Shown in pieces: positions 5,010-64,000 of a DNA stretch of 64,000 bases (the first letter of the stretch is position 1; each line of letters begins with the position of its first letter). Both the position numbers and the translations under genes were made by a program. A model generated the notes under the pieces. The model did not search any database. It saw only the letters and a program-made list of their open reading frames with translations, and was not told the origin of the DNA. The stretch comes from Henriciella sp. (GTDB taxonomy: Bacteria > Pseudomonadota > Alphaproteobacteria > Caulobacterales > Hyphomonadaceae): NCBI GenBank assembly GCA_017642885.1, contig JAEPOM010000006.1, forward strand, positions 62,001 to 126,000, in the 5' to 3' direction.

Positions 5010-5096
5010 TCGGTTTCGGAGCGGCGTATCTCGGTGCGCCGCTCCGATCCGCTTATGAGCTGGAGATATCATAAAGCGAGGGCGCACGGACCACCC

Positions 5097-6593
5097 ATGT
5101 CCTTAGATCGGAAAATCGACTGGCGACGGGTCACGCGTAACGCGTTGACCTCTATTGCTGTTCCGCTCATGAGCGCTGCCTGCGTAGCTGATCCGGATTT
5201 TGTTACGGGTGGCGAAACACAGGCACTGCTGGAAGCGTTTGAGGCTCAATCGCTTGCTATCGAAGAGGCAAAAATTGAGGCTGAGCGCAGAACGATCAGC
5301 TTTCTCCGCGTCGCGCCTGACCCCGTCTCCGGATCCCCGTTGCTTTCTGTTGATCTTGATCAGGCGGACCTGGACACGGTACTCGCTCAAATCCTGCTAA
5401 GCCCACTGGTTGAGTTTAGCGGTCAAAGATCAAAGCAAGGAACGCGCGTTTCTGCGCGGTTTAGCGATCGACCGATCGTCGAGGCCATCAATACACTGTT
5501 GGAAAGCACCGACCTGTACGTCGAATGGCGCACCGGTATGTTGAGGTTCCAGACAGGTCGCCCCGTCCAGGATCAATCGAGACTGGATACTGGCTCAAGT
5601 CTGGACTGGGGTTCAACTGTAAGCCAGGAAATCGTGCTCCAGAATCTTGCGGCGCTGGATGTCGTCGAGATGATCTCCAGCCTATTCCCACCTGACGATG
5701 ACTATGAAGAGGATGGGTTTACGGTGGGAAGTTTGCCAGAACTGAACGCCGTCTATCTCTCTGGGACGCGCGCTGCCGTAACGCGCGCGACGCGAATCAT
5801 CCGACAAGCTGACCGCCCGGTTCCGCACGTAATCATAGAAGCGCTGGTGGTGAACATTGATACGTCTTCCGTGGAGTCAATCGCGATAAATCTCTCAGAC
5901 GGCTCTGCGGGAAAGTTTGACCTGACATCGCTGGTTCCAGCTCAAGCAGGCGGTAATCTCGTTGCCTCTTTCTCAGATCTTGCCGCTAACTCAGCGGCGA
6001 TCACGGCAAGCATAGATTTTCTTGCGGCTCAAAACGCAGTTGAAATCATGGCTCGGCCGTATGTGGCGACCCGCAGCACAAAAGCTGCAACGATTTCTAT
6101 TGTCGACGACCAGTTCGCAAGAGTGGACACGTCGGGTGATGATTCTTCCATTATCACGACAGATTCCATCACGGCCGGAATTTCTATGGAGATCACCCCG
6201 ATCGTCATGGCGGATGGCGGGATACGCGTGGATATAAATCTCGAGGATTCGCGCTTCTCGGCGACGGCCGGAGACATCATCATCGCTAAAGAGCGCAGCA
6301 TGGCCACGACCTCCATGATCGTTCAGTCAGGACAGACCATTGTGATTGGAGGGCTGAACTCGCGGTATCGTTTAACCGATAAATCTGGTTTCCCCTGGCT
6401 TCGGCGTGTCCCGCTACTCAACCTCCTCGGAGGAGAGCAGGGCTCGGTGGAGTCGCGGGAAGAATTGGTCGTCTATCTGACGCCTTGTATCTGGGTCCCA
6501 GGGCTCGATACGCCAATGCCGTTGCCAGGACGGCCCGCTCCGGAGTTGCCGACGCTCCTGAGCGTGGAAAATGGGGGTAGAGCCGTTGATTGA
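5097..6593 (+). CDS. Orphan secretin (outer-membrane gated channel)
   Basis: This is a secretin-family outer-membrane ring protein of 498 residues from ATG 5097; an ATG at 5055 is possible. The N-terminus has a hydrophobic signal ending in MSAAC, a possible lipidation cysteine. An STN-like domain (about residues 75-155) is followed by an N1-like fold with ELNAVYLSGTRAAVTRATRIIRQADRP. The C-terminal secretin barrel contains VIIEALVVNI, MVQSGQTIVIGGL-like and VPLLNLLGG ... REELVVYLTP elements. No ATPase, inner-membrane platform or pseudopilin gene is nearby, so it is not part of a complete local type II, III or pilus system. It sits with two small exported proteins and a LuxR regulator. Confidence 0.88.
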   Translation: MSLDRKIDWRRVTRNALTSIAVPLMSAACVADPDFVTGGETQALLEAFEAQSLAIEEAKIEAERRTISFLRVAPDPVSGSPLLSVDLDQADLDTVLAQILLSPLVEFSGQRSKQGTRVSARFSDRPIVEAINTLLESTDLYVEWRTGMLRFQTGRPVQDQSRLDTGSSLDWGSTVSQEIVLQNLAALDVVEMISSLFPPDDDYEEDGFTVGSLPELNAVYLSGTRAAVTRATRIIRQADRPVPHVIIEALVVNIDTSSVESIAINLSDGSAGKFDLTSLVPAQAGGNLVASFSDLAANSAAITASIDFLAAQNAVEIMARPYVATRSTKAATISIVDDQFARVDTSGDDSSIITTDSITAGISMEITPIVMADGGIRVDINLEDSRFSATAGDIIIAKERSMATTSMIVQSGQTIVIGGLNSRYRLTDKSGFPWLRRVPLLNLLGGEQGSVESREELVVYLTPCIWVPGLDTPMPLPGRPAPELPTLLSVENGGRAVD

Positions 6594-6602
6594 GAAAACA
6601 GG

Positions 6603-9155
6603 CTATTTCTTCTTCGCCGGAGCCTTCTTCTTTTTAGGCGCGCGTTTCTTTTTGCCGCCTTTCGCTTCTTTGGCCGCTAGGATCTCGAGCGCCTGATCGA
6701 TATTAATCTCGGTCGGCTCCGTATCCTTCGGCAAGGTCGCGTTCGTCTTCTGGTGTTTGATATACGGACCATAGCGCCCATCCAGTACTTGCACCGGATC
6801 GCCACTAGACGGATGCGCGCCAAGGTCTTTCAGCACTTTCGGAGCAGCGCGACCGCCGCGTCCACCGCCAGCGCGCTTGTCTGCGATCAGAGAGACGGCG
6901 CGATTGAGGCCGATTGTGAACATCTCTTCGACGCTCGACAGATTGGCAAACGTGCGCTGGTGCTGAACGTAGGGGCCGTAGCGTCCGAGATTGGCTAAGA
7001 TTGGCTCTTCGTCTTCCGGGTGCTTACCGACTTCGCGTGGTAGACTGATCAGCATGAGCGCTTTTTCAGGATCAAGCTCTTGTGGAGACCAACCCTTAGG
7101 CAGACTCGAGCGCTTTGGTTTGTCTTCGCCGATATCCATTTCGAGATAGGGGCCGAACCGACCCGACTTTAGCAGAACCGGTTGCCCGGTTTCAGGGTGA
7201 GTCGTAATCTCCTCGCCGTCTGGATTAATGGCGTTCTCAGCTTCTTCCTGCGTCGAGAATGGACGTGTGAACTTGCATTCCGGATAATTCGAGCAACCGA
7301 CAAAGGCTCCGTGGCGACCGAGCTTCAGGCTAAGATCGCCCGCGTTGCAAAGTGGACAAAGGCGCGGCTTCTCTTTGACATTGCCGTTTTCATCCAATGG
7401 CGGAAACACATGGTGGCCGAGCGAGTCGTTCAGAACATCGAGAACCGCTGAAACTCGTAGGTCTTTGGTCTCATCAATCGACGCTGTGAACTGCGTCCAA
7501 AATTCGCGCAGGAAGGCTTTCCAGTCGAGCTTTCCGTCGGAAATGACGTCGAGTTTCTCTTCGAGGTTCGCTGTATAATCGTACTGAACGTACCGTTGGA
7601 AGAAATTCTCCAGGAAAGACGTAACCAGGATGCCTTTGTCTTCGGGAACCAATTGCTTTTTCTCGATCCGGACATAGTCGCGGTCGACGAGCGTCGACAT
7701 GGTCGACGCATAGGTGGACGGACGCCCAATGCCGAGTTCTTCCAGTCGCTTGACGAGGCTGGCTTCAGTATATCGCGGAGGAGGGGTGGTGAAGTGCTGC
7801 TCGCTTTTCGCTTCCAGGAGGTCAGCGTGCTCACCTTCATTTAGCTTAGGCAGGCGGGCTTCAGCGTCTTCATCCTTGTCCGTATCATCCCGCCCTTCAG
7901 TGTAGAGCTTGATGAAACCATCAAAAACCAGAACCTGTCCCGTTGCGCGAAGCATCGCGGACTTGTCTTTGTTGTGCAGGTCGATCGTCGTGCGCTCAAA
8001 TTTGGCGGGTTCCATCTGAGACGCCACGGCGCGGCGCCAAATCAGCGCATAGAGCTTCCAGAGATCGCCATCTGATTGCTTATAATCGTCTGGTCGGAGG
8101 CTGAAACTCGTCGGCCGGATGGCTTCGTGAGCCTCCTGAGCATTCTTTTGCTTTGACGAATAGCGTCTTGGTTTTTCCGGTAGGTAGTTTGCGCCATAGT
8201 CACTTTTGATGTGATCACGGGCGGCGTGGTACGCCTCCTCGGCCATATTCACGCCGTCGGTCCGCATATAAGTGATGCGCCCCTCTTCATACAGCTTCTG
8301 AGCCGCCTGCATGGTGCGCTTGGCTGAGAATCCCAGGCGACGCGACGCGTCTTGCTGAAGGGTGGAAGTAATGAATGGCGGAGGCGGATTCCGTTTGACC
8401 GGCTTGGCCTCAACGCTGCTGACGGAGTAGCCGCCAATCTTGACTTTATCGAGCGCAGTTTGTGCCGCCGCTGCATCGGGTAGGTCGAATTTCTTCAGGG
8501 CTTTTCCATCGAGCGAGTGCAGGCGAGCTTGGAAATCTGTGCCGCCCGGCGCGCGGAGGTTCGCTCCGATGGTCCAATACTCCTCCGGTTTGAATTTTTC
8601 GATCTCTAGCTCGCGATCGACAACGATCCGGAGCGCTACTGACTGAACCCGTCCAGCCGAGCGCGACCCCGGGAGTTTGCGCCAGAGCACCGGAGAGAGA
8701 TTAAATCCAACCAGATAGTCAAGCGCCCGACGTGCGAGATAGGCGTCGACGAGTTCTTGATCAATCTCGCGTGGGTTTTCCATCGCGCTCGTGACAGCCG
8801 TTTTGGTAATGGCGTTGAACACAACGCGCTCAATCGGCGTATCCTTTTTGATGGCGCGGCGCTTTTTGAGCGCGTCCAGAAGGTGCCAGGAAATCGCCTC
8901 ACCCTCACGATCGGGGTCGGTTGCAAGGATGAGTTTGCTGCCCGATTTGATCGCTTCTGCAATTTCTCGAATCCGCGCCTGACTCTTGGAGTCAGCCTGC
9001 CACACCATCTCGAAATCATTGTCAGGATCTACAGAGCCGTCTTTTGATGGGAGATCTCGGATGTGACCGTAAGAGGCGAATACTTTGTAATCGCTTCCGA
9101 GATACTTGTTGATCGTCTTCGCTTTGGCGGGGGACTCAACAACAACAATTTTCAT
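6603..9155 (-). CDS. topA: DNA topoisomerase I
   Basis: This type IA topoisomerase relaxes negative supercoils. The 850-residue protein begins with the Toprim domain (MKIVVVESPAKAKTINKYLG; metal motif DPDREGE near residue 80). The catalytic tyrosine is Tyr296 in EGRITYMRTD. One intact four-cysteine zinc element (CPLC...CSNYPEC) follows the core. Three further GRFGPY/GRYGPY repeats have lost their cysteines, as is usual in alphaproteobacteria, and a Lys/Ala-rich tail ends the protein. It lies downstream of lptF-lptG on the minus strand, with a 78-base gap. Confidence 0.98.
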   Translation of the reverse strand: MKIVVVESPAKAKTINKYLGSDYKVFASYGHIRDLPSKDGSVDPDNDFEMVWQADSKSQARIREIAEAIKSGSKLILATDPDREGEAISWHLLDALKKRRAIKKDTPIERVVFNAITKTAVTSAMENPREIDQELVDAYLARRALDYLVGFNLSPVLWRKLPGSRSAGRVQSVALRIVVDRELEIEKFKPEEYWTIGANLRAPGGTDFQARLHSLDGKALKKFDLPDAAAAQTALDKVKIGGYSVSSVEAKPVKRNPPPPFITSTLQQDASRRLGFSAKRTMQAAQKLYEEGRITYMRTDGVNMAEEAYHAARDHIKSDYGANYLPEKPRRYSSKQKNAQEAHEAIRPTSFSLRPDDYKQSDGDLWKLYALIWRRAVASQMEPAKFERTTIDLHNKDKSAMLRATGQVLVFDGFIKLYTEGRDDTDKDEDAEARLPKLNEGEHADLLEAKSEQHFTTPPPRYTEASLVKRLEELGIGRPSTYASTMSTLVDRDYVRIEKKQLVPEDKGILVTSFLENFFQRYVQYDYTANLEEKLDVISDGKLDWKAFLREFWTQFTASIDETKDLRVSAVLDVLNDSLGHHVFPPLDENGNVKEKPRLCPLCNAGDLSLKLGRHGAFVGCSNYPECKFTRPFSTQEEAENAINPDGEEITTHPETGQPVLLKSGRFGPYLEMDIGEDKPKRSSLPKGWSPQELDPEKALMLISLPREVGKHPEDEEPILANLGRYGPYVQHQRTFANLSSVEEMFTIGLNRAVSLIADKRAGGGRGGRAAPKVLKDLGAHPSSGDPVQVLDGRYGPYIKHQKTNATLPKDTEPTEINIDQALEILAAKEAKGGKKKRAPKKKKAPAKKK

Positions 9156-51472: not shown

Positions 51473-54385
51473 TTAGAAGGATGCAGTGACCCGTGCGAAC
51501 CATGTACGACCCAGAGTGTCGTAAGTCGCAGGATATGTGTTCGACTGCTCTGCAGAATCGTCACCGATTATGACGAAGTCTTCGTCGAGAAGATTCTCAA
51601 CACCCACCGTCAGTGAGACGTTATCCGTCACATCCCAGAAGCCGGTCAGATCGAACTGGTCGTAAGCATCCACACCCGTGATGAACAGGTCTGGTGTTCC
51701 GCCATTTGCGAACAGATCGTCTTCAACAGAAGAGATACGCGTCCAACGCAGACGTGCGCCGTAATCACCAAGAGCCCAGTCAAAGCGAGTGTTGAAGCTC
51801 CATTCTGGAGTAGGCTCGCCTACAGTCGCTCCGTAGAAGCCAACCGCTTCGATTGGATCTTCACCTGGCAACGGGATGAAATTGCTTTCGTCTGTATAGG
51901 TGACCAGCGAGTAGACCCCGAAGGTTCCGTAGCTATCAGTGTCGAAAGAGTAATCGACGCTAATGTCTATACCTTTAGTGCTCAACTCAGCCGCGTTCCG
52001 AGAGAACGAATCAAAGTTGAGAACCGTACCGTCTGGATTACGACGGATCGCATTACAGAACTCTGGCAGGCCATCGATGTAGCAGAAGTCGAAGATCCGC
52101 TGTGACGGCACACCTGCAACGACGTCTTCGATTTGAATGTCGAAGTAGTCAACGGTGACTGCGAGATTATCGATGAACGATGGCTCCCAGATTGCACCCA
52201 AGGTAAGCGTTTCAGCAGTTTCTTCCTGCAGAGTTGGGTTCCCGCCAAACAGACCTTCGATCTGTGCGTTAACTTGGATCGGCGTACCGGTCGCTCCAGT
52301 AGGAACGTTAGCCAGTGCCGCTGGGTTGCTCTCACAGTTCGCAGTAATTACGGCTGCGTTCGCAGGATCAAACCCACCAAGTGTTCCACCAGAACAGGGG
52401 TCAGCGATGTTCGGGAAGCCATTGGTTTGTGGCGAGAACAATTCACCGATGTTTGGCGCACGAACAGCTTGTTGGAACTGACCACGCAGACGGAGTTCTG
52501 GAATTGGTGTCCAGCTAAGACCGGCAGCGTAAGAGCTGACCTGTCCAACACCCTCAGTTGAGTAGTCAGATACACGATACGCACCGGTGAAGGTAATTTC
52601 TTCAGCCATTGGCGCGTTCTCAACGAGAGGTGCGTTGATCTCGACGAATAGTTCTTTTACGTCGAAATCGCCAAAAATGTCTGGAGCTTGGTTAAAGCCA
52701 CGAACATCTGGGCCAAGACCTGCACCTCGAGTGGACAGGTTCTCTTCACGGTACTCACCACCGAAAGCAACCATGATTGGGTTTTCGGCAGCTGGAGATG
52801 TCAGACCAAACAGGTCGCCGCTTGCAGACGCTGATGCAACGAACTGTTCTGTTTGACCCGTGATGATGCCCGTTACAGAGATCGCATCAACAACGTCCTG
52901 CGTCAGACCATTCTCTTGGAAGATATTGGCCGTACCGTTTGCGACAGCAGCGGTGTAAGCAGAGAACGAAATGTTACCAGTCTGGCTAACCGCAGTTTCG
53001 GCTTGACCGAACGATGCAAAAGCTTCCCAGGTCCATGTATCTGTAAGAGATCCGCGCAGACCGCCATTCACTTGGAAACTGTCATTGCGAATGTCAGATA
53101 GACGACCACCAGTTTCCTGGAAACGGCGACCGGCAGAGAAGGTTGCATCTGGCACACCGTTTCCATCAGCGTCAGCAAGTGTTCCACCGCCATTGCCCAG
53201 AGAAATTGCGTTCAGTGCAGCAAGCGCTTCGGTATCACCGGCTAGGAACGGGTTGTCCAAGTTCACGGTGATCGCGCCGAAGATCGGCGTTGGTGCCAGA
53301 AGCTGCTCAGTTTGGCTGGTTACAAATACGGCTTGAGCGTATGCTTCCAAATTCTCAGTGATGTCGTAAGAGACATTTGTGTACATAGAGTAACGCTCTT
53401 GCGGAATCTGCAAGTAGTTCTCTGGAGCATAGTTATAACGGTTGGTGTTTGGACCAGCGTTGATAAATGGCAGAATGCCAGGGCCACTTGGGTTAAAGAT
53501 GAAACCGAAGCTGTCTGTCGTACAAACGCCAGTACCATCATCCACCGTACCTTCGACGCCACATGGTGCGTTGATGCCCAGGATCGAGGTGTAGTCGACG
53601 TCGAAATCAAGTGCGAAGGTCGACGGGATGTTGACCGAACCGGTTTCCTGAAGGCCCGCGGCAACACCATTGTCAGCCAGCGTGAAGAATGAACCAGCGC
53701 GATCGCCCTGAAGGACAGATTCGCGTTGTGTGTACTCGATGCTGAGTACTGCGTTACCGCGGCCGCTATCAAAATTACCGCCCATGGTTGCAGCGGCTGT
53801 GTAGATCGCGCCGTCACCTTCTTCGGTAGACTCATAACCAGCAGACACTTCGAGACCTTCGAAGTCATCTTTCATAATGAAGTTTACAACACCTGCGACA
53901 GCGTCTGAGCCATACACTGCGGACGCACCACCCGTCAGAATGTCTACACGCTCTACGAGAGCGGCAGGGATGGTGTTCAAGTCAACTGCACCAGGGTTTT
54001 GGTTGGAGGTTACATAACGACGACCGTTTACCAATACGAGCGTACGGTTTGCACCAAGACCACGAAGGTCGACTGTGGCTTCACCAATACCAGGGTTGTT
54101 GGAAGTCGAATCGAAGCCCGGAATAACTTGCGGGAGCTGGTTAAGAAACTGCTCTGCATTCACGGTGTTCGAAAGTGTAAGATCAGCCGCGTTCACGTTC
54201 GTGATAGGGCTACTTGAAGTTAGGTTGCTGTTTTGAATGCGAGAACCAGTAACCGTAATCGTTTCTTGTACTGATTCTGTATCATCGCCTTCTTGAGCAA
54301 TTGCGACATGCGACAAAAGAGGTGCGGCGAGACCCGCAATTACAGTTGTACGCACCAAATGACGTCGAAGTTTCGACTTCGCCAT
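51473..54385 (-). CDS. Large TonB-dependent receptor
   Basis: This 970-residue outer-membrane receptor has a signal peptide (to about HVAIA/Q), a TonB-box-like ETITVTGSRI, a plug with VDLRGLGANRTLVLVNGRRYV and VERVDILTGGASAVYGSDAVAGVVNFIMKDDFEG, and a 22-strand-type barrel. It ends WFARVTASF, the usual aromatic terminus. This plug type (NGRRYV...GGASAVYG) is the one expanded in Caulobacterales and sphingomonads for complex organic substrates. A good ribosome-binding site (GGAGAG) precedes the start. The TPR-oxygenase gene is convergent downstream. Substrate unknown. Confidence 0.95.
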   Translation of the reverse strand: MAKSKLRRHLVRTTVIAGLAAPLLSHVAIAQEGDDTESVQETITVTGSRIQNSNLTSSSPITNVNAADLTLSNTVNAEQFLNQLPQVIPGFDSTSNNPGIGEATVDLRGLGANRTLVLVNGRRYVTSNQNPGAVDLNTIPAALVERVDILTGGASAVYGSDAVAGVVNFIMKDDFEGLEVSAGYESTEEGDGAIYTAAATMGGNFDSGRGNAVLSIEYTQRESVLQGDRAGSFFTLADNGVAAGLQETGSVNIPSTFALDFDVDYTSILGINAPCGVEGTVDDGTGVCTTDSFGFIFNPSGPGILPFINAGPNTNRYNYAPENYLQIPQERYSMYTNVSYDITENLEAYAQAVFVTSQTEQLLAPTPIFGAITVNLDNPFLAGDTEALAALNAISLGNGGGTLADADGNGVPDATFSAGRRFQETGGRLSDIRNDSFQVNGGLRGSLTDTWTWEAFASFGQAETAVSQTGNISFSAYTAAVANGTANIFQENGLTQDVVDAISVTGIITGQTEQFVASASASGDLFGLTSPAAENPIMVAFGGEYREENLSTRGAGLGPDVRGFNQAPDIFGDFDVKELFVEINAPLVENAPMAEEITFTGAYRVSDYSTEGVGQVSSYAAGLSWTPIPELRLRGQFQQAVRAPNIGELFSPQTNGFPNIADPCSGGTLGGFDPANAAVITANCESNPAALANVPTGATGTPIQVNAQIEGLFGGNPTLQEETAETLTLGAIWEPSFIDNLAVTVDYFDIQIEDVVAGVPSQRIFDFCYIDGLPEFCNAIRRNPDGTVLNFDSFSRNAAELSTKGIDISVDYSFDTDSYGTFGVYSLVTYTDESNFIPLPGEDPIEAVGFYGATVGEPTPEWSFNTRFDWALGDYGARLRWTRISSVEDDLFANGGTPDLFITGVDAYDQFDLTGFWDVTDNVSLTVGVENLLDEDFVIIGDDSAEQSNTYPATYDTLGRTWFARVTASF

Positions 54386-54792: not shown

Positions 54793-55572
54793 TCAACGTC
54801 GAACAGCCGGGCTTTCCATTTCGAGACCATTCGACCGGGCTGCGAGAAAGAGTTCCACCGCGACGTAGAGCGGATCGCCGTAGGGGAGGGGCTCTGCTCG
54901 AACACCCAAATCGCAGTCGCGAAGACGTCGGTGCAGGGAGCCGAGAGACTCCCATTCGAGCCGGTAAGCCGGGAATCCGTTTCCGTGGCCTTGGCTTAGC
55001 GTATCGCCGCGCAGACGTTTGCCCCAATTTTCCGTATGGCATTGCTGGCAGGACAGATTGAATTGCCCGCGGCGAGTCTGGAAATAGTCTCTCCCAGCTT
55101 CGTATATGTCTTGAGCTGGCCCGCTGACGTCCACGGACACCGGAGCGCCGAGAGATTGATTTGCGACAAAGGCGGTGACGGATAGGAGTTCCTCAGATTC
55201 GTATTCCCATGCTGGTTCGCTCTGATGCGTAACGCGGCACTGGTTGATGCGGCCCTCCAGGTTGAGAACCCTGCCGGCTTTCTCGTCATAGGCGGGATAC
55301 GTCGCTGCGACGCCGGATAATCCTGCTTCGTGGCACGTTATACAGGCCTCGCCCGACGCAGGTGCTTTGGAAAATAGAGCCTCTCCACGATCGACCCATA
55401 AATAGCCCGGATTGGCGAAATTATCCTCCTGAAGATCGCGTGTTTCTGCGGTTAGGAATATAGATCCAGAAACAATATCTTCTGCGGCGATTTCAGTAGC
55501 ATTTTCTGCCGCAGGTGGTGCGCTGCATGCCGGTATCAGCGCGATCAACGTGGCGCCAGCGAAGCGCTTCAT
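54793..55572 (-). CDS. soxA: Sulfur-oxidation diheme cytochrome SoxA, lipoprotein-like
   Basis: SoxA pairs with SoxX to couple thiosulfate onto SoxY in the periplasm. The 259-residue protein has two c-type heme motifs, CITCH (Cys77-His81) and CQQCH (175-179), and the characteristic active-site heme ligand Cys220 in RRLRDCDLGVRAEPLPYGDPLYVAVELFLAARSNG. The signal peptide ends IPAC (Cys16), a possible lipobox; most SoxA proteins are soluble. The start overlaps the soxZ stop (ATGA). No soxB follows; the next feature is a 407-base spacer. Confidence 0.93.
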   Translation of the reverse strand: MKRFAGATLIALIPACSAPPAAENATEIAAEDIVSGSIFLTAETRDLQEDNFANPGYLWVDRGEALFSKAPASGEACITCHEAGLSGVAATYPAYDEKAGRVLNLEGRINQCRVTHQSEPAWEYESEELLSVTAFVANQSLGAPVSVDVSGPAQDIYEAGRDYFQTRRGQFNLSCQQCHTENWGKRLRGDTLSQGHGNGFPAYRLEWESLGSLHRRLRDCDLGVRAEPLPYGDPLYVAVELFLAARSNGLEMESPAVRR

Positions 55573-55889
55573 GTGACCGTCAGCGCAGACGTTTCGGACC
55601 AAGCAGTGCCATGCTGATCGGTCCACGTGAAATCAAGAGTTCCACTATTCGAAGCTCTCACATAGAATGTCAGCAACGGATTTGCGGCTATCCCCGGATG
55701 GAAGTCAGCGGCAAAGACCAATTCATCCAAATAGCGGCACTCGAACCGGGTAATGATGTCTCGCTCGATGACTTCACCGCGCGCGCCGCGCCGATGGCCG
55801 CTCTCCATAGGGTGTCGGATAAGGGCTTTAATCTCGATCACTTCACCAACGTTTGCGGCATCTGGAACGGCAAGACGAATACTAGCCAT
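55569..55889 (-). CDS. soxZ: Sulfur carrier partner SoxZ
   Basis: SoxZ is the partner of SoxY in the periplasmic sulfur carrier complex. The 106-residue protein matches the family throughout: VGEVIEIKALIRHPMESGHRRGARGEVIERDIITRFEC, DLHP-like FHPGIAANPLLTFYV and SGTLDFTWTDQHG. It has no signal peptide, as expected, because SoxZ is exported with SoxY by the Tat route. ATG 55889 follows a GGGGGAAG site. Confidence 0.95.
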   Translation of the reverse strand: MASIRLAVPDAANVGEVIEIKALIRHPMESGHRRGARGEVIERDIITRFECRYLDELVFAADFHPGIAANPLLTFYVRASNSGTLDFTWTDQHGTAWSETSALTVT

Positions 55890-55897
55890 GCTTCCCC

Positions 55898-56365
55898 CTA
55901 CAACACCACGCACGCAGCGAGCGTGACAACAGTTTCGCGGCTACCCGACCATAGCGAGCCATCATTCATTTCGGCGATGGCCTGAATGCTCTGTGTGCCC
56001 GACATTCGAATGCGCGCATCGACCTTGGCGCGACCCGAGCCAGGTGAGAAGTAGAATTGCGAGATCAGGGGCAGGGGGTTTCGTGGCGACAAGATCGCGA
56101 CGCGTTTAACAAAGTCCTCTTTCGTCATCGGGCTGTCGACCTCGACGGAGAGAGGCACTGAATATCCGTTCTCGGCAATTGGCGGCAGTTTGATCGTTAC
56201 GCGCCCTTCGGTAACAGGTCGCATGCCAAACAGCTCCCGGCGCGCTTGGTCGAGATCGGCCTGTTCGGCGTGGCTACTCAGCGGCGATGCTGCAATCAAC
56301 ACGGTCCCGGTCCCCAAAGCGAGGAGGTCTCTCCGGTTAAGGTCCAACCTCGTATTATGCGTCAT
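55898..56365 (-). CDS. soxY: Sulfur carrier SoxY with atypical C-terminus
   Basis: SoxY carries sulfur intermediates on a C-terminal cysteine. The 155-residue protein has a Tat-like signal (LNRRDLLALGTG), then the family core GRVTIKLPPIAENGYSVPLSVEVDSPMT and SQFYFSPGSGRAKVDARIRMSGTQSIQAIAEMNDGSLW. In place of the canonical GGCGG tail it ends VTLAACVVL: the cysteine (Cys152) is kept but all four glycines are lost. The other frames at this point do not restore a GGCGG tail. It overlaps soxX by 11 bases. Confidence 0.93.
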   Translation of the reverse strand: MTHNTRLDLNRRDLLALGTGTVLIAASPLSSHAEQADLDQARRELFGMRPVTEGRVTIKLPPIAENGYSVPLSVEVDSPMTKEDFVKRVAILSPRNPLPLISQFYFSPGSGRAKVDARIRMSGTQSIQAIAEMNDGSLWSGSRETVVTLAACVVL

Positions 56366-56813
56366 CACCAGAGGCCCTCCGCTCAACCAGATAGGCAACT
56401 ATATCTTCGACTTGCTGAGCCGACAAAACAGACTCTCCCGAATAGGCTTCACCAACCTGATGTAGGTCATGAATGCGATAATAGGAGGGCATCAATGCGC
56501 CGGGTTGTACCAATTGATAATCCGCGATCCGCAATCGCAATTGTCCAGCGCTCAATCGATCACCGACCAAAGTTAGATCCGGACCGACATCACCCTGAAA
56601 CTCTGCATCCAATCCATCGACCTGATGGCAGAGAATACAATGCCCCTCATTGCGCGAGACGAACAGCTGTTCCCCGCGGATCGTGTCTCCGGCCGTTTCT
56701 GTCAGCGGCTGGGTGATCGCGTCGCCTAAAATTGTGTTGGCACGAATAAGCGGCGCTTCTTGTGCCCCGCAGGCGGATATAATGAGAACCGCGAGTATAC
56801 CCACTCGACTCAC
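56355..56813 (-). CDS. soxX: Sulfur-oxidation monoheme cytochrome SoxX, lipoprotein
   Basis: SoxX is the electron-transfer partner of SoxA. The 152-residue protein has the heme motif CILCH (Cys59-His63) and axial Met108 in PGALMPSYY, with DVGPDLTLVGDRLSAGQLRLRI typical of SoxX. The signal ends in ISAC (Cys15), a good lipobox, so this SoxX is predicted to be lipid-anchored. It overlaps fccB by 4 bases. Confidence 0.92.
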   Translation of the reverse strand: MSRVGILAVLIISACGAQEAPLIRANTILGDAITQPLTETAGDTIRGEQLFVSRNEGHCILCHQVDGLDAEFQGDVGPDLTLVGDRLSAGQLRLRIADYQLVQPGALMPSYYRIHDLHQVGEAYSGESVLSAQQVEDIVAYLVERRASGDDA

Positions 56814-58081
56814 CCGAACGTCTCGCTTGTAATCGTTTCAAACCAAGATCTGGCCTGATCGGCTTCCTGGTTTCGGATAGATTTAACAGCGCTCAACGAG
56901 CTTACGCCACCAGCCTCCGAGACACTCATCAAGATATTGTTTTCATTGGAATAAACGCCTGCAATGGAGATGGCTTCATCGGGCGTGGTAAACGAGTAGC
57001 AGGTATTGGAGAGAATGGTCGCTTGCGGCTCAAGACCAGAGACGAGGCGGGCGACACCCATAGCGCAGACCTTGGCTTGAAGGTTAGCTGAAAATGCTGA
57101 TTTCGGCATTGGAGCGGCGATGGTTGCGTCCCCGATAACGTGGATATTCGCCTGCTGCGTTGATTCGAAAGCGAGCGGATCAATCGGGCACCATCCTGTG
57201 CCGTCACTCACACCAGCACGATCGGCTATAGATCCAGCCTTTTGTGGAGGGATAATGTTGATCACTGATGCATCGAACGATTCAAAATCCGTTTCGATTG
57301 TCTCTGTCGCGGCATCAACCCGGGAAACAGTCCCATCGTCGCTTGCGCCGCGCCACTCCAGATGATCAGGATAGTGTTCGTCCCACGCTTCCTGAAACAG
57401 TGCCTTTTTTGAGAAACTGTCTTTCGCGTCGAGGACGATCAGTTTGGAGCGAGGTTTCCGAGTTTTCAGATAGTGCGCAATCATGCTTGCCCGCTCATAT
57501 GGCCCCGGAGGACATCGGAAGGGCGCTGTCGGGACGCTCATGATGACGGGTTGGCCGTCCTCTAGCGCGTCGAGCTTCTGCCGCAACAATAGAGTTTGCG
57601 GACCTGCTTTCCAGGCATGGGGAAAGATCTGCGCAGCCGCTTCATCATAGCCCTCGAGGGCGTTCCAGCGCATGTCGATCCCGGGTGAGAGGATCAGCCG
57701 GTCGTAGCCGATCGTTTCCGCGTCCGAAACGGTCACCGTCTGAGCCACCGGATCCACGTCGAGGGCCAACGTGTTCAATACGGTTACTCCCAGTCTCCGC
57801 AGGCCATCGTAACCAAACTGCTGCGCCGATAGTGCGCGATCTGTTCCAAGCACGAGGTTGCTAAATGGGCACGCCGTATAGGTTGCGTTGGCGTCTATGA
57901 GGGTAATGTTTGAAGAGGGGAGGACCGTCGCTAGCGTCTGGGCTGCACTGGCCCCGCCAAAGCCGCCTCCAATGATCACAATTCTCGCCTTTGCGCGCGC
58001 GAAAGCTGGAGTCGGAAGCGCCAGGGATGCTGTACCCAATCCCATGGCCTTAAGCAGAAAGCGGCGATCCAGCTGCGTCAT
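56810..58081 (-). CDS. fccB: Flavocytochrome c sulfide dehydrogenase flavoprotein subunit (FccB/SoxF)
   Basis: This FAD enzyme oxidises sulfide to sulfur and reduces a cytochrome c. The 423-residue protein has a Tat signal (LDRRFLLKAMG...AFA), the FAD loop RIVIIGGGFGGASAAQTL, Cys71 in TACPFSN (covalent flavin site in FCSD) and the redox pair Cys190 (FRCPPGPYERA) and Cys361 (SNTCYSF). It is coupled to soxX and to the cytochrome gene on either side by 4-base overlaps. Confidence 0.92.
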   Translation of the reverse strand: MTQLDRRFLLKAMGLGTASLALPTPAFARAKARIVIIGGGFGGASAAQTLATVLPSSNITLIDANATYTACPFSNLVLGTDRALSAQQFGYDGLRRLGVTVLNTLALDVDPVAQTVTVSDAETIGYDRLILSPGIDMRWNALEGYDEAAAQIFPHAWKAGPQTLLLRQKLDALEDGQPVIMSVPTAPFRCPPGPYERASMIAHYLKTRKPRSKLIVLDAKDSFSKKALFQEAWDEHYPDHLEWRGASDDGTVSRVDAATETIETDFESFDASVINIIPPQKAGSIADRAGVSDGTGWCPIDPLAFESTQQANIHVIGDATIAAPMPKSAFSANLQAKVCAMGVARLVSGLEPQATILSNTCYSFTTPDEAISIAGVYSNENNILMSVSEAGGVSSLSAVKSIRNQEADQARSWFETITSETFG

Positions 58082-58425
58082 CGCTCACCCTTGTCTTGAT
58101 CAAAGTAATTAGCGAGCAACTCGATGTCGTCGTCTGAGTACCCTCGTGCCAAGCGGTGCATGACCGTGATGCCATCCGTCTCCGCTCTATACCGCAACAA
58201 CGAGTCGCGCAGAGCCTCGGCTCCGTAACCTTTGAGAGAAACGACAGCCGTGCTGGTTTCCGAATGGCACCCAGCGCACGCCAATGCGAGCGACGCCGAA
58301 CGGTTCGTCAGCTGCGCGATGCTGGTGTTCTTTACATCGTCATGGTCAGTGACCGAGCCGCCGCACGCTGCTAACCCAAGAAAGGCCAGAAGCAATGCGG
58401 CGCCAAGGGAATGCGATTTAGACAT
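58078..58425 (-). CDS. Monoheme c-type cytochrome, lipoprotein (FccA-like)
   Basis: This 115-residue cytochrome has a lipobox LAAC (Cys21), one heme motif CAGCH and a C-terminal MHRLARGYSDDDIELLANYF with a likely axial Met. The pattern is that of the FCSD cytochrome subunit and cytochrome c553-type class I proteins. It overlaps the molybdoenzyme gene upstream and fccB downstream, so it can accept electrons from either; this is inference from position. Confidence 0.88.
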   Translation of the reverse strand: MSKSHSLGAALLLAFLGLAACGGSVTDHDDVKNTSIAQLTNRSASLALACAGCHSETSTAVVSLKGYGAEALRDSLLRYRAETDGITVMHRLARGYSDDDIELLANYFDQDKGER

Positions 58426-60664
58426 CCCGTAAGTTCTGATCCTTGATTGGAAGCTGACGCACTCGTTTCCCGGTCGCCGCATAGATCGCATTCAGAACTG
58501 ACGGCGCTGCCACAGCAATCGTCGGCTCACCGACGCCGCCCCAGAAACCACCGCTCGGCATGATAATCGTCTCGACTTCGGGCATGGCTGCAATTCGCAT
58601 TGAATCGAACGTGTCAAAGTTCTGTTCTTGAGCGACGCCGTCGACGAACGTAATCTCTCCGTACAGCATGGCGGAGAGACCATAGACGAAGGAGCCTTCC
58701 ACCTGGGCTTCAATCTGCTGCGGGTTCACAGCATGACCAGGATCCGTCGCCGCGACGATACGATCAATTGAGAGCGCGCCGTCATCATCCACAGTGACTT
58801 CTGCACAGGCGGCAACATAAGCCCCAAAGCCATACATCACGCAAAGACCGCGATGCTTCCCATCATCCTGACCCCAGCCGGATCGATCGGCAGCTGCTTC
58901 CAAAACGGCTGCAGCTTGTGGACTGTCCTGCAGGTGTGCGAGGCGGAATTCGAGCGGATCACGGCCTGCTGCGTGCGCCATCTCGTCCATGAAGCATTCT
59001 AGATAGATCGCGTTCTGGTTCAGGTTCACGCCGCGCCAGAACCCCGGTCGGACGGGCGGATTTCGCATCGCGTGATCGACCAGGAAGTTATCGAAAGAGT
59101 ATTTTAGAGTCTGGTCTTCCAACCGCTCGTCCACGCCGGACGGTAACAAGCCCTGGAAGGTCGCATAGTCGACCCCGTCTTGTAGCGCTTGAGGAATAAG
59201 CGCGGCAAGAATAGATTGTCCTGAAATACGTAGATGCATTCCAGTCATGTTGCCATCGGCATCCAAGGCGCCGCGCACTCGCCCTTTGGTGGTCGGGTGA
59301 AAGAAGCCATGCTTCATGTCTTCTTCGCGCGTCCAGAGCAATTTGACTGGCGTACCTGGCATTTCCATTGCGAGCATAACGGCTTGCTGAACGTAATCAG
59401 GCGCCCCGCGTCGACCGAAACCACCGCCAAGATGAATCTTGTAGACCTCACAATCTTCAATCGGCAGACCAGACGCTTCGGATACAGCCGCCAGCGCAGC
59501 CTCACCATTCTGGGTCGGACACCAAATCTCGCAACGATCGCCTGTAAAGAGCGCCGTTGTGTTCATTGGCTCCATACAAGCATGGTTCTGAAACGGCATA
59601 TTATACGTGGCTTCGACAATTTGTGCGGCATTCGCAAAAGCGCCGGCAAGATCACCGCCGCCATTACCAACAAAGGCGTCGTCTGAAGTCAGGCCATCAT
59701 CGAGCTCGGCTTCAAAGGCTTCTGTCGAGAAGTCGACGCCGCCTTCCCAAACAATCGGGAGGGCATCCAATGCCGTGTTCGCTTGCCACCAGGTGTCTGC
59801 GATCACAGCGACCGCGTTTTGACCCTCGCCAAACGGATTGTTCAGGGCGACGACTTTTTGAACGCCGGGCATGCCTTCGACCGCGGCTGCATCAAACGAT
59901 GCAACAGTGGCTCCAATTTTTGGAGATTGGCGGATCGACGCGCTGAGCAGTTTGTCAGGCGTGGCATCGGTATCCTTGAGCACGTCCTCGAGACCAATAT
60001 CGGCCCCATAGACTTGCTTGCCGATGAGCTTGTCCGCGGTGTCGAGGCGTTTCTTAGCGGCTCCGATGATCTTCCATTCGCTGGGATCCTTGACCGTAAC
60101 TTCTAGCGGCGGAGCAAGTTGGGAAGCGGCCTCAGCAACCGCGCCGTAGGTCGTGGTTCGACCAGACTGGCCGTGCGTCACGATGCTGTTTTCCGAGCTA
60201 CACTCAGAAGCAGGCACTTCCCATGCGCTCGCAGCAGCTTCAATCAGCATTGCTTTAGCGGCAGCGGCGCCTTCGCGCACATAATCCTGCGAGCCTCGAA
60301 TGCCTTGGCTTCCGCCAGTTGAATAGCTGCGCCATACCCGTTCGCGAGCGAGGTTCTCGCCAGGTGTTGGGTAAACTGTCGTAACTTTGTCCCAATCGGC
60401 ATCCAGCTCGTCAGCAACCAATTGCGCGAGCCCCGTCAGGGTGCCTTGGCCCATTTCTGACCTCGCGATGCGAACGGTAACCGTGTCGTCAGTATCGATG
60501 TGGACCCATGCATTGATCTCATCGATCGAAGACGGATCCGCAGTTGCATCCTGATCTGCGCCAGACCCACCGGGGGCGCAGCTTGCAAGGATACCAATCG
60601 TCAGGCCGGTAGCACCGGTACCAACAATGAATCCTCGGCGGGAGAGCATTCCTGTATCAGCCAT
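58418..60664 (-). CDS. Molybdenum hydroxylase large subunit (IorB/xanthine dehydrogenase family), Tat lipoprotein
   Basis: This is the molybdopterin-binding subunit of a periplasmic hydroxylase of the isoquinoline 1-oxidoreductase/nicotinate dehydrogenase type. The 748-residue protein has a Tat signal SRRGFIVG and a lipobox LASC (Cys29). Moco-domain signatures include RIARSEMGQGTLTGLAQLVADELD, PFQNHACMEPMNTTA and GGGFGRRG, with catalytic Glu713 in FWGGVGEPTIAVAAPSVLNAIYAATG. The 2Fe-2S subunit gene is 12 bases upstream. The substrate, which could be an aldehyde, N-heterocycle or other compound, is not known. Confidence 0.9.
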   Translation of the reverse strand: MADTGMLSRRGFIVGTGATGLTIGILASCAPGGSGADQDATADPSSIDEINAWVHIDTDDTVTVRIARSEMGQGTLTGLAQLVADELDADWDKVTTVYPTPGENLARERVWRSYSTGGSQGIRGSQDYVREGAAAAKAMLIEAAASAWEVPASECSSENSIVTHGQSGRTTTYGAVAEAASQLAPPLEVTVKDPSEWKIIGAAKKRLDTADKLIGKQVYGADIGLEDVLKDTDATPDKLLSASIRQSPKIGATVASFDAAAVEGMPGVQKVVALNNPFGEGQNAVAVIADTWWQANTALDALPIVWEGGVDFSTEAFEAELDDGLTSDDAFVGNGGGDLAGAFANAAQIVEATYNMPFQNHACMEPMNTTALFTGDRCEIWCPTQNGEAALAAVSEASGLPIEDCEVYKIHLGGGFGRRGAPDYVQQAVMLAMEMPGTPVKLLWTREEDMKHGFFHPTTKGRVRGALDADGNMTGMHLRISGQSILAALIPQALQDGVDYATFQGLLPSGVDERLEDQTLKYSFDNFLVDHAMRNPPVRPGFWRGVNLNQNAIYLECFMDEMAHAAGRDPLEFRLAHLQDSPQAAAVLEAAADRSGWGQDDGKHRGLCVMYGFGAYVAACAEVTVDDDGALSIDRIVAATDPGHAVNPQQIEAQVEGSFVYGLSAMLYGEITFVDGVAQEQNFDTFDSMRIAAMPEVETIIMPSGGFWGGVGEPTIAVAAPSVLNAIYAATGKRVRQLPIKDQNLRDV

Positions 60665-60676
60665 GTCTCGTATCCC

Positions 60677-61129
60677 TTATGATTTATCGACGGCGAGCTT
60701 GATGCCCTTGCGGACGCGCGCCAGCGTTCCACAGCGACAGATATTGGTGATTTCAGCATCAATATCTTCGTCCGTGGGATTCGGATTGTCGTTCAGCATT
60801 CCAGCAACCGCCATGATCATACCTGGCTGGCAGTAGCCACATTGAGGAATATCCAGCTCCGCCCAGGCTTCCTGTACGGGGTGGCTGGCATTCTCCGACA
60901 AGCCTTCAATAGTTGTAATTTCTTCCTCACCGGACAGTGCTCCGACTGGATAGACGCATGAGCGAACCGGGCTTCCGTCAATGTGAATGGTGCAGGTTCC
61001 GCATTGGGCGATGCCGCAGCCATATTTTGCTCCGGTCAATCCAACCTGTTCGCGAATTACCCAGAGCAGGGGGGTGTCATCCGCCACATCCACCGTCTTT
61101 TTTTCGCCATTGATCTTGAGTGTCGCCAT
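60677..61129 (-). CDS. 2Fe-2S subunit of molybdenum hydroxylase (IorA-like)
   Basis: This 150-residue protein carries two [2Fe-2S] clusters for electron transfer from the Moco subunit. The plant-ferredoxin-type cluster uses Cys38, Cys43, Cys46 and Cys58 (CGIAQCGTC). The second uses Cys97, Cys100, Cys131 and Cys133 (QCGYCQPGM, ICRCGTL). No signal peptide is visible; in relatives it is exported with the Tat-bearing large subunit. It starts the hydroxylase-sox transcript, preceded by a candidate promoter at 61195. Confidence 0.95.
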   Translation of the reverse strand: MATLKINGEKKTVDVADDTPLLWVIREQVGLTGAKYGCGIAQCGTCTIHIDGSPVRSCVYPVGALSGEEEITTIEGLSENASHPVQEAWAELDIPQCGYCQPGMIMAVAGMLNDNPNPTDEDIDAEITNICRCGTLARVRKGIKLAVDKS

Positions 61130-61194
61130 ACTGTGCATCCTCCAGCACTTGGACGCGGGGACCCCTATAGGTCTCTCCTTCACGCATTGGAGTG

Positions 61195-61287: not shown

Positions 61288-61734
61288 CTAGCGCCACCTT
61301 TCGGCATCGGCATAGTCCGAATCGCCCGGCTCGATCCAGGCGTCACCCCGATCCGTCTTTTCCCGTTTCCAGAACACCGCTTTGGTCTTCAGATAGTCCA
61401 TTAGAAAGTCCGCGGCCTCGAAAGATGCGCGTCGATGTGCAGAGGCTGTGGCAACAAACACAATTGTTTCGCCTGCCTTGATTTCGCCGACGCGGTGTTG
61501 GACCAGAGCATTCACGATCGGCCACCGGGATTGGGCCTCGTCCATCGCGGCTTGAATGCCGTCTTCCGTCATCGGTGAATAGGCCTGGAGAAACAGGTGC
61601 TCGACCCCGCCACTCGTTGCCTTGGAACGAACTATCCCGGAAAAGCTCACGATTGCGCCAGCCCCAGCCGCTTCAGTTTCGAATGCCTTTAGCAGAGCAC
61701 TCGCATCGATCGGATCCTCTGATACTTTGAGCAT
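61288..61734 (-). CDS. moaE: Molybdopterin synthase catalytic subunit MoaE
   Basis: MoaE, with MoaD, inserts dithiolene sulfur into precursor Z. The 148-residue protein has the family order GAIVSFSGIVRSKATSGGVEHLFLQAYSPMTEDGIQ, HRVGEIKAGETIVFVATASAHRRASFEAADFLMDYLKTKAVFWKRE with the catalytic lysines. Its start lies directly at the moaD stop. Confidence 0.95.
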   Translation of the reverse strand: MLKVSEDPIDASALLKAFETEAAGAGAIVSFSGIVRSKATSGGVEHLFLQAYSPMTEDGIQAAMDEAQSRWPIVNALVQHRVGEIKAGETIVFVATASAHRRASFEAADFLMDYLKTKAVFWKREKTDRGDAWIEPGDSDYADAERWR

Positions 61735-61983
61735 TTATCCGCCCCCAACCGGCGGCATGAACGCTATCTCGTCAGTTTCTGAAATGGAGGTTGCGTCAAA
61801 ACAGAGCTCATTGTTTACGGCAATCCGCACGGTCGGCTCGAGCAGCGCGCCTTGTGCGTCAAAGCGCAGATCGAGGAAGTGGCGTAACTCACCAGCGGTC
61901 GATATCGTATCCGGAAGCGTCAACGATTCCTCGGCTGCTCCTGTGATATCGCTCAGGCGACCAAAATAGAGAAGTTTCGCCAT
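61735..61983 (-). CDS. moaD: Molybdopterin synthase sulfur carrier MoaD
   Basis: MoaD delivers sulfur as a C-terminal thiocarboxylate. The 82-residue ubiquitin-like protein begins LLYFGRLSDITG and ends in PPVGGG, with the C-terminal Gly-Gly needed for adenylation. It shares one base with the moaA stop and abuts moaE. Confidence 0.94.
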   Translation of the reverse strand: MAKLLYFGRLSDITGAAEESLTLPDTISTAGELRHFLDLRFDAQGALLEPTVRIAVNNELCFDATSISETDEIAFMPPVGGG

Positions 61984-63014
61984 TATCCGCCCGTAACAGA
62001 CATATGCCGCGGAAGAGCAGGGGCCTCACCGCGGGTATTGATACTGAAATCATGGCGTTCAGGCTTTTTGAACAGTGCCTGATCGAGGCACTCATCAAGC
62101 GCGCGAACTGGGTCTGCAGACTCTCTGAGCGCGGCGCGAAGATCAATATGATCGTCCTGACCCAGGCACATATAGATACGTCCCGTGCAGGTGACGCGGA
62201 CGCGATTGCACCCAGCGCAGAAATTATTCGTCAGCGGCGTGATAAAGCCAAGCTTGCCGCCGGTCTCTTTCACCCGCGCATATCTCGACGGCCCGGCATT
62301 CGCATCAGTTGCCGGAATGTCATTCAACGTCCAGTTTACTTCGAGTTGGTCGCGCACCATGGGCAGCGGAATGTACTGATCGATTCGATCTTCGCCGGTA
62401 TCGCCGAGCGGCATGACTTCGATCAAAGTCAGATCCATATCCTTGCCATGCGCCCATTCAATCATTGTTGGGAGCTCGGACAGATTCCCGTGTTTCATTG
62501 CGACGGTGTTGATCTTTATCTTAAGCCCGGCATCGAGCGCGGCATCGATCCCAGCGAGTACCTGCTCCAGCTTACCCCGCCGCGTGATCGCTTCGAATCC
62601 CTGCGGGTCAAGGGAATCGAGTGAGACGTTGATCCGCTTAACGCCGTTCTCCACGAGCAGGTCCGCAAATTGTTCCAGCAGCGTTCCATTTGTGGTGAGC
62701 GTTAGCTCATCCAATCCGTGCCCCAGATATCCGCCGAGACGCTTGATCAGTTCCGGCATCCCACGCCGAACCAGTGGCTCTCCTCCCGTGATCCGGATTT
62801 TCTGGACACCGCGACGAATAAACGAGGACGCAACTTGATCCAGCTCTTCAATCGTCAGCAGTTCCTGTTTGGGCAAAAACTGCATCCGTTCAGCCATGCA
62901 ATAGGTGCAGCGTAGGTCGCAACGATCGGTCACAGACATCCGCAAATATGTCACCTGACGACCAAACTGATCGACGAGTGGCTTGTGGCTTGGATTGGCA
63001 AGTCCGTCAGGCAT
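61983..63014 (-). CDS. moaA: GTP 3',8-cyclase MoaA
   Basis: MoaA is the radical-SAM enzyme starting molybdenum cofactor synthesis. The 343-residue protein from ATG 63014 has CDLRCTYC (Cys32, 36, 39) in an N-terminal SAM cluster, the GGEP motif of radical SAM proteins, the C-terminal second cluster [16 protein letters not shown] and the terminal Gly-Gly. It overlaps the downstream XdhC-MobA gene's stop by 8 bases. moaC and the activating genes are not in the window. Confidence 0.95.
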
Positions 63015-64000
63015 CTGTGAACTCCATTGCGCGATCAAGATCGGCGATAACATCGATATCGACAGCGGACTGAGGTGCCAAGTCTACGGTACGATTTCCG
63101 TGTTCCAGCGAAAGGAACACCGCTTTCGCGCCGCGATCGCCGGAGAGCGCCTCGAGCGCTTCGAAATGCTGGCGTTTGAACAAAGCGGGCGGCGACAAGA
63201 CACCGGCGCTATTGGACATCACGCTCGACACTCCCGGGATATCTGCGCAAACACGAAGCGCTTCGATATGCGACGGTTCAACACACGGCATGTCTGCAAG
63301 GACGACAATCACCTGGTCGAACGAGGACAAATCTTTGAGCGCTTGAATGCCCAGGCGTAGCGTAGTCGACTGCCCTAGATCGGCTTTAGGGTTTTCGATG
63401 ACCTGCCACCCGGTTCGCTCCAAGACGCTTTTTCGCCTCGGGGCATTTGTAGGGACCGCGGCTAGTTTCGTCAGGTTTGGATCGTCAGGAATGTTCGTTG
63501 CTGCGCGTTCAAGGATCGAACGCCCAGACAGCTCTGCTAACAATTTGTCTCCGCTCTCAAACCGACTGGATGCACCCGCAGCCAACATGAGAATGGCCGT
63601 GTGTGGCCGACGGCTAGTGGACTTCGCCGGAAAGAACCCGACAATCTCAGCCATCACGGACAAAGCGAGCATGGACGCATTCCGAAGCGAGGGCACCAGC
63701 CCAATAGGACCTTTTACCCGCGCGATCTCGGCATCTTCGCAACCGGCGTCTTTCAGAGCCGCACACCGCACCGAATGAGTCCTGGCGCTGCCGACGGCTC
63801 CTACATAGAATGCAGGACCGAACAGCGCCTGACGCAAGAGCGGGATCTCCCAATCTTGATCGTGAAATAACAGGACGAAGGCGGTCCAGGCGTCGTCCGA
63901 GTTTGCCGACAGGTCCGACGGCGCCCGAAGTTGCTCGATAGAGGAAAAACCTGCTGCGTGGGCTGTCGCAATATCTTCTTCATCGACGAGTTGAAGATGC
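63007..64000 (-). CDS. XdhC-like / MobA-like NTP-transferase fusion, 5' end beyond window
   Basis: This frame is open to the window edge, so the N-terminus is missing. The visible first part, about 115 residues, matches the C-terminal XdhC Rossmann domain ([38 protein letters not shown]). A linker joins a MobA-like nucleotidyltransferase domain beginning [34 protein letters not shown] and including [16 protein letters not shown]. XdhC proteins protect and sulfurate Moco for xanthine-dehydrogenase-family enzymes, and MobA-like domains build the cytidylyl form (MCD). The fusion, together with moaADE, serves the hydroxylase downstream. Confidence 0.85.

Follow-up and report, generated by a model that had tools for sequence, protein, structure and literature searches.

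A SoxY Paralog with an AAC-Type C-Terminal Arm Is Paired with a Xanthine-Oxidase-Family Molybdenum Enzyme in Hyphomonadaceae

The sox Gene Cluster of Henriciella

The stretch of DNA analysed here, called the window in what follows, covers 64,000 nucleotides of a Henriciella contig and contains a tightly packed series of genes in the order IorA-IorB-cytochrome-SoxF-X-Y-Z-A, separated by successive gaps of 12, -8, -4, -4, -11, 8, and -4 bases; all the features described below lie on the minus strand. The gene of most concern is that of a SoxY paralog (55898..56365), whose ORF, running from 56365 to 55898, encodes 155 residues with a Tat-type N-terminus (RRDLLALG) and a C-terminus that reads ETVVTLAACVVL before the stop. 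Its SoxY core is recognised by the Pfam model PF13501 with 103.2 bits against a gathering cut-off of 28.4, confirming the view of an earlier note on this DNA that the core is intact. On one side lies SoxZ (55569..55889; TIGR04490, 89.1 bits, cut-off 76), followed by SoxA (54793..55572; TIGR04484, 223 bits, cut-off 110; PDB 1h31, E 1.2e-56), a dihaem protein that has two CxxCH motifs as well as the two cysteines aligned with haem-ligand positions. On the other side is the SoxX cytochrome c (56355..56813; TIGR04485, 74.8 bits, cut-off 61), which has a CILCH motif and a Met within MPSY. SoxA and SoxX both exceed their equivalog cut-offs and possess the Cys and Met residues that we take to be haem ligands, features which together suggest a SoxXA-type loading enzyme.

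Beyond soxX are the genes for SoxF, the flavoprotein of flavocytochrome c sulfide dehydrogenase (56810..58081; PF21706, PF09242; PDB 5n1t, E 4.3e-126), and for a small c-type cytochrome, c551-like with a CAGCH motif (58078..58425), which has no Pfam match and a weak hit to NF045774 (22 bits, cut-off 118) but a conserved place in the cluster. Then comes the IorB-like large subunit of a xanthine-oxidase-family molybdenum hydroxylase (58418..60664; PF02738, PF20256), which bears a Tat signal (TIGR01409, 19.2 bits, cut-off 16.7) and finds its nearest solved relative in the large subunit of a bacterial aldehyde dehydrogenase (PDB 8gy3, E 3.4e-74). Its membership of the family is indicated by the molybdenum-cofactor-binding domains, GGGFG, and the glutamate of GVGE(P); the two motifs and this glutamate presumably play the roles that we ascribe to them in carbon-hydroxylating relatives. 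The IorA-like [2Fe-2S] small subunit (60677..61132; PF01799, PF00111) precedes IorB, and upstream of it are genes for the molybdenum cofactor (61288..63837), namely MoaE, MoaD (ThiS family), MoaA, and an XdhC-MobA fusion, the frame of which continues to the window end.

At the opposite end of the cluster, soxA is adjoined by a gene for a TonB-dependent receptor (51473-54385). Such a receptor gene shares the strand of soxA in the window and in locus L051 and runs opposite to it in L053-L056, but none was seen nearby in most other loci; it is possible that it serves in cargo uptake.

The C-Terminal Arm of SoxY

The tail of the protein is VTLAACVVL (55901..55927), without the GGCGG of the family and with its cysteine, Cys152, as the fourth residue from the C-terminus, exactly as the earlier note had described it. 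Of 46 matches in other genomes of the family, the 30 with the highest scores all carry the VTLAAC arm, followed by a short and mostly hydrophobic end. In an alignment of 41 sequences drawn from several orders, three arm positions (V147, A151, and C152) never vary, and conservation reaches at least 90% at T148, L149, and A150.

A wider view comes from a scan of named genomes with the family AAC alignment as query, which found 81 relatives, 80 loci of which were kept. The closest belong to Hyphomonas, Henriciella, and unclassified Hyphomonadaceae, with Ponticaulis slightly further away. Cultured relatives in which the cluster occurs include Hyphomonas polymorpha (L066) and Henriciella pelagia (L062). 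By their tails these loci divide into 48 of AAC type (46 AAC, one GAC, and one SAC), 30 of GGC type (26 with GGCGG), sampled as those nearest to the AAC type, and two others. Alanine stands directly before the cysteine in 48/48 AAC loci and two residues before it in 46/48; V, I, or L follows directly in 47/48, with E at the next position in 8/48, and between two and six residues lie C-terminal of the cysteine. All 30 GGC loci have a Gly-Gly pair directly before the cysteine, and 26 of them, versus none of the 48 AAC loci, have a Lys six residues before it. The mean hydropathy of the xxCxx segment is 2.53 in the AAC loci versus 0.22 in the GGC loci. Variants of the arm occur in L121, L123, L125, L126, and L143 (G348:C25), comprising GGCSA (two), GGCGAG, GGCTGSG, and GGCSN; SoxB was not detected by tblastn in the first four of these loci, some of which are short.

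Does the loss of glycines shorten the reach of the arm? In AlphaFold models of single chains the last strand ends at residue 148 in the AAC type, where the cysteine is Cys152, and at residue 154 in the GGC type, where it is Cys158, placing the cysteine four residues past the predicted end of the strand in both. The visible change therefore lies in the chemistry of the arm rather than in its length before the cysteine, and the models lend no support to the idea, raised by the earlier note, that the altered arm could not reach its partners. An ordered arm as the difference between the types was also considered and rejected, for the single-chain models fail to separate AAC from GGC; model confidence for the last block is 47 (residues 151-155) and 68 (residues 151-160), over different spans that make the figures not comparable. 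The closest PDB matches of the AAC-type model are SoxY chains, with a Foldseek TM to target of 0.89 for 2nnc_A. Judged by its sequence, AAC SoxY is a conserved side branch of SoxY in which the tail cysteine is set in a different motif of water-repelling character.

Relationships to Known SoxY Systems

NCBIfam distinguishes true SoxY with the GGCGG arm (TIGR04488) from a paralog whose arm reads AACIE (TIGR04487, SoxY_para_1). The window SoxY scores 148.8 bits with TIGR04487 and 104.7 bits with TIGR04488, below the respective cut-offs of 172 and 125. Like the SoxY-related AACIE arm protein of TIGR04487, it combines the SoxY fold with a cysteine arm of AAC kind, although it has AACVVL in place of the literal AACIE. 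The score alone was rejected as a classifier of type, because the GGCGG SoxY of L091 reaches 165.6 bits with TIGR04487 (148.1 with TIGR04488) and thereby outscores the window SoxY on the paralog model, so that a score below the cut-off cannot tell the arm types apart. It is the arm, the neighbours, and the tree that separate them, not the raw TIGR04487 score.

With the classical SoxY of the SoxXAYZ-B-CD system (TIGR04488; PDB 2oxg, 2nnc, 4uwq) the window protein shares the fold, the C-terminal cysteine arm, and the partners SoxXA and SoxZ; it differs in lacking GGCGG, the function of which is discussed in passages of PMC6067878, and in the genome around it, where neither SoxB nor SoxC has a match. 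A second comparison is offered by TIGR04557, a SoxYZ-like carrier that also stands by a periplasmic carbon-oxidising dehydrogenase and, according to portions of PMC12997753, adjoins quinoprotein dehydrogenases. In that case SoxY and SoxZ are fused and the enzyme is of PQQ type, and the window SoxY scores 66.9 bits, below the cut-off of 140.

A published counterpart is the second sox cluster of Starkeya novella (Snov_1975-1982), presented in the available text of PMC3797975 as soxX2Y2Z2A2F2 with a xanthine-oxidase-family molybdenum enzyme and without SoxB or SoxCD. This is a single organism, in which a full Sox cluster is present as well; the likeness lies in gene make-up, and the text makes no mention of the SoxY arm. 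It describes very low expression under the conditions tested, with SoxAX and SoxYZ undetected and one SoxF-like subunit low; its authors suggest no functional significance in S. novella, while allowing for other growth conditions. Excerpts of PMC4782131 report an isoquinoline oxidoreductase and a flavocytochrome-SoxYZ locus of SAR324 separately. In the partial texts covered by our literature search, no paper was found that names the AACIE arm, and one was found on a molybdenum-linked cluster (PMC3797975). Such a cluster has thus been in print since 2013 for S. novella, without a function; the portions of the literature covered gave no account of it as a general feature or of a connection with the arm.

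Distribution of AAC SoxY and Its Partners in Hyphomonadaceae

TIGR04487 has a match (E up to 0.001) in 47 of the 105 genomes of the family, ten of which (L001-L010, all with the same gene order) exceed the cut-off. The IorB of the window finds a counterpart of more than 900 bits in each of these 47 genomes, whereas the remaining 58 have none; next in score come a fragment of 387 bits in one of the 47 and then a match of 350 bits at 36% identity. SoxY and IorB lie on one contig in 45 of the 47, with no more than 4367 bases between their low ends, and on separate contigs in G014 and G025. The model for MoaA is exceeded in 45/47 AAC genomes versus 33/58 other genomes of the family, which makes molybdenum cofactor synthesis no more than a suggestive marker of AAC genomes. 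Within an order-wide sample of 299 genomes, TIGR04487 matches 34, of which 33 belong to the family of the window and one to another; AAC SoxY is rare outside the family in this sample.

The possibility that SoxB is encoded elsewhere in the Henriciella genome, which is 100% complete, was dismissed after a genome search that found no match for it, nor for SoxC. Across the family, neither SoxB nor true SoxY (TIGR04488) exceeds its cut-off in any of the 105 genomes; the SoxB model gives weak matches below the cut-off in 14 of them, none AAC, and also matches, again below the cut-off, 10 of 14 control genomes. SoxC exceeds its cut-off in three of the 105, none of them AAC. These three (G097, G102, and G103, of one genus) have a SoxC-type sulfite dehydrogenase without a match to TIGR04487 or TIGR04488.

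Partners of the Two Arm Types across Named Loci

The same division holds over the named loci when partners are counted by tblastn: IorB is present in 45/48 AAC loci and 0/30 GGC loci, and SoxB within the locus in 0/48 and 24/30, respectively, counts that are not independent, since the AAC rows belong to one lineage and the family and named sets overlap in genomes and include near-copies; the Fisher values calculated for the pairing are accordingly too favourable. The three AAC loci without IorB begin at a contig end within the cluster, L065 and L081 in SoxF and L128 in SoxY. It is IorAB, and not SoxB, that accompanies the AAC arm. L128 itself, a contig titled as a Klebsiella pneumoniae MAG that holds a fragment of AAC SoxY with SoxZ and SoxA, is probably misbinned.

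SoxB was then sought in 48 whole genomes of the named set, namely those behind 17 AAC loci (L079, L083, L086, L089, L093, L097, L100, L104, L110, L111, L112, L115, L118, L120, L059, L065, and L068), those behind the 30 GGC loci, and that of L119. It exceeds the cut-off in 6/17 AAC genomes, in 24/30 GGC genomes, which serve as positive control, and not in the L119 genome. All six AAC genomes with SoxB have a second SoxY of GGCGG type, on the SoxB contig in five, so that the AAC copy is a paralog with company of its own and not as a substitute inside the classical set. By their coordinates, the AAC SoxY, the GGCGG SoxY, and SoxB of G354 (the genome of L115) apparently share a contig, at a separation of about 66 kb. 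Two other genomes, G348 and G349, have two SoxY matches each and no SoxB; the second match ends in GGCSN in G348, and no such tail occurs in the frames read in G349.

One locus stands apart. L119, from a Rhodocyclaceae MAG, has IorAB (within 4495-8650) beside SoxZ and a SoxY ending in VTNAGCGL, with SoxX and SoxA not found there by tblastn; its genome holds another SoxY (L168), ending in GGCAG, beside SoxX and SoxA, and gives no SoxB match. Possibly the L119 protein is an intermediate or represents a third arm type.

Conservation of the Cluster and Origin of the AAC Type

All 30 short loci of the family keep the order SoxF-X-Y-Z-A, with IorB ahead of it in 20/20 of the longer stretches. Residues are conserved as well. 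The CxxCH motifs of SoxA and both haem-ligand-aligned cysteines, including Cys220, are found in 48/48 AAC loci, CxxCH and Met108 of SoxX in 47/47 rows, Cys71, Cys190, and Cys361 of SoxF in 40/40, and GGGFG of IorB in 44/44, with GVGEP (Glu713) in 43/44 and one gap, rows of less than 60% length being excluded from these counts. In six AAC loci (L097, L100, L104, L112, L115, and L120) IorAB is followed by SoxX-Y-Z-A, with neither SoxF nor the small cytochrome detected between IorB and SoxX; these two proteins are therefore not core, and to judge from gene content the core looks like IorAB plus SoxXYZA. ORF clusters holding the XdhC-MobA, MoaA, and MoaE of the window include 20, 16, and 14 of the 48 AAC loci and 0/30 GGC loci, figures obtained by a clustering that under-counted genes in GC-rich loci, which is why tblastn was used instead for the partner counts.

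In a tree built without the arm, a single branch with SH-aLRT support of 85 separates the AAC rows from all others. The support is moderate, and the analysis was a quick one with long branches, comprising 79 rows of which 48 are AAC (window included, L128 left out). A single origin of the AAC type is thus likely. If so, its link with IorAB would constitute one old and lasting association, not many independent ones.

Possible Function and Alternative Explanations

What, then, does the AAC arm carry, and for which enzyme? We consider it highly probable (about 0.85) that AAC SoxY is the carrier of a dedicated Sox system that operates without SoxB, and gene content points to a separate oxidation pathway, distinct from classical Sox. 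The earlier note had suggested that the tail signals altered chemistry or loss of the thiosulfate cycle; the first part and the absence of the classical cycle agree with the lack of SoxB and SoxC matches in the genome and of SoxB above cut-off in the family, whereas decay was rejected. A classical SoxY that degenerates once thiosulfate oxidation is lost would explain the missing glycines and the missing SoxB and SoxC, yet the AAC arm is itself conserved over many genera, the checked residues of SoxA, SoxX, and SoxF and the molybdenum enzyme are intact, and in six genomes the AAC copy coexists with SoxB and a GGCGG SoxY; on the strength of the conserved arm and intact partners we have discarded this explanation as very improbable. 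Even less can be said for a sequencing or assembly error at the 3′ end of SoxY, since a base error concealing GGCGG would have had to recur in the 30 best-scoring loci from other genomes of the family and throughout the alignment of 41 sequences; its chance is practically nil.

In the pathway that we envisage, SoxXA would load Cys152 oxidatively with a sulfur compound, in the manner of classical SoxAX, a role supported by homology and by the residues kept. The parts of PMC4423706 bearing on this point support loading of SoxAX type and are silent on the present cluster. The loaded AAC arm would then pass to the periplasmic molybdenum hydroxylase IorAB instead of SoxB or SoxCD, a step that we infer from the strict pairing of AAC SoxY with IorAB; IorAB may oxidise the group bound to the arm, with electrons going to cytochrome c, and SoxF, where present, may remove the persulfide left behind. 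That IorAB acts in the same pathway on the cargo of SoxYZ seems probable, with a good deal less assurance than the existence of the dedicated system. The nature of the cargo is another matter. Supposing that IorAB does act on SoxYZ, an organic thiol is our best guess, though a tentative one: the carbon next to sulfur in the mixed disulfide would be hydroxylated, an aldehyde freed, and a persulfide left on SoxY, so that no hydrolase of SoxB type would be needed and each component of the cluster would have a task. An inorganic cargo is, on the same supposition, slightly less likely again. The complete scheme of a Sox-molybdenum hydroxylase pathway for organic sulfur, with thiol loading by SoxXA, hydroxylation of carbon on the carrier by IorAB, and clearing of persulfide by SoxF, is accordingly speculative and has the odds against it. 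Moreover, with an aldehyde dehydrogenase as the nearest solved relative, IorB might simply oxidise free aldehydes.

Two further explanations retain the cluster as a functional unit. In the place of SoxCD, IorAB could use water to oxidise inorganic sulfane sulfur attached to the AAC arm, as the molybdenum enzyme of a lithotrophic pathway that sulfide enters through SoxF and SoxXA; this amounts to the pathway envisaged above with another cargo. It is favoured by the homology of SoxF and SoxXA to enzymes of inorganic sulfur, by the restriction of SoxC to three genomes of the family that are not AAC, and by the fact that water is the oxygen source for both classes of molybdenum enzyme. We know, however, of no release of a sulfonate end product without SoxB and of no sulfur-oxidising enzyme in the xanthine oxidase family, while IorB keeps the GGGFG and GVGEP that we associate with carbon-hydroxylating relatives, and we regard such a replacement of SoxCD as unlikely. 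Alternatively, SoxXYZA may be accessory to the molybdenum enzyme, supplying or protecting sulfur or the redox state for IorAB, for example its Mo=S ligand, on the model of the SoxYZ-like carriers that accompany PQQ alcohol dehydrogenases. The existence of the TIGR04557 family beside quinoprotein dehydrogenases (PMC12997753, in part) lends it credit. So do the molybdenum cofactor genes, XdhC fusion included, that adjoin the operon, and the absence of SoxF from the cluster in six AAC loci. A SoxXA pair with complete haem ligation would nevertheless be more than such a task requires. Furthermore, sulfuration of XdhC type presumably takes place in the cytoplasm, ahead of Tat export, and most IorAB-like enzymes, to our knowledge, do without genes of SoxXYZA type; an accessory role therefore strikes us as improbable.

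Implications for the Biology of Sox Carriers

The GGCGG arm has been taken as defining the textbook SoxYZ, and the second arm type described here is tied to a different partner enzyme, suggesting that the sequence of the arm reports the partner. Genomes that are called Sox thiosulfate oxidisers from soxXAYZ alone could thus be misread. For a group of uncharacterised periplasmic molybdenum enzymes, the pairing poses a concrete question of substrate. If the pathway that we envisage for organic sulfur is true, oxidation of carbon bound to a Sox carrier would be widespread among Hyphomonadaceae, with a scattered occurrence in other Proteobacteria.
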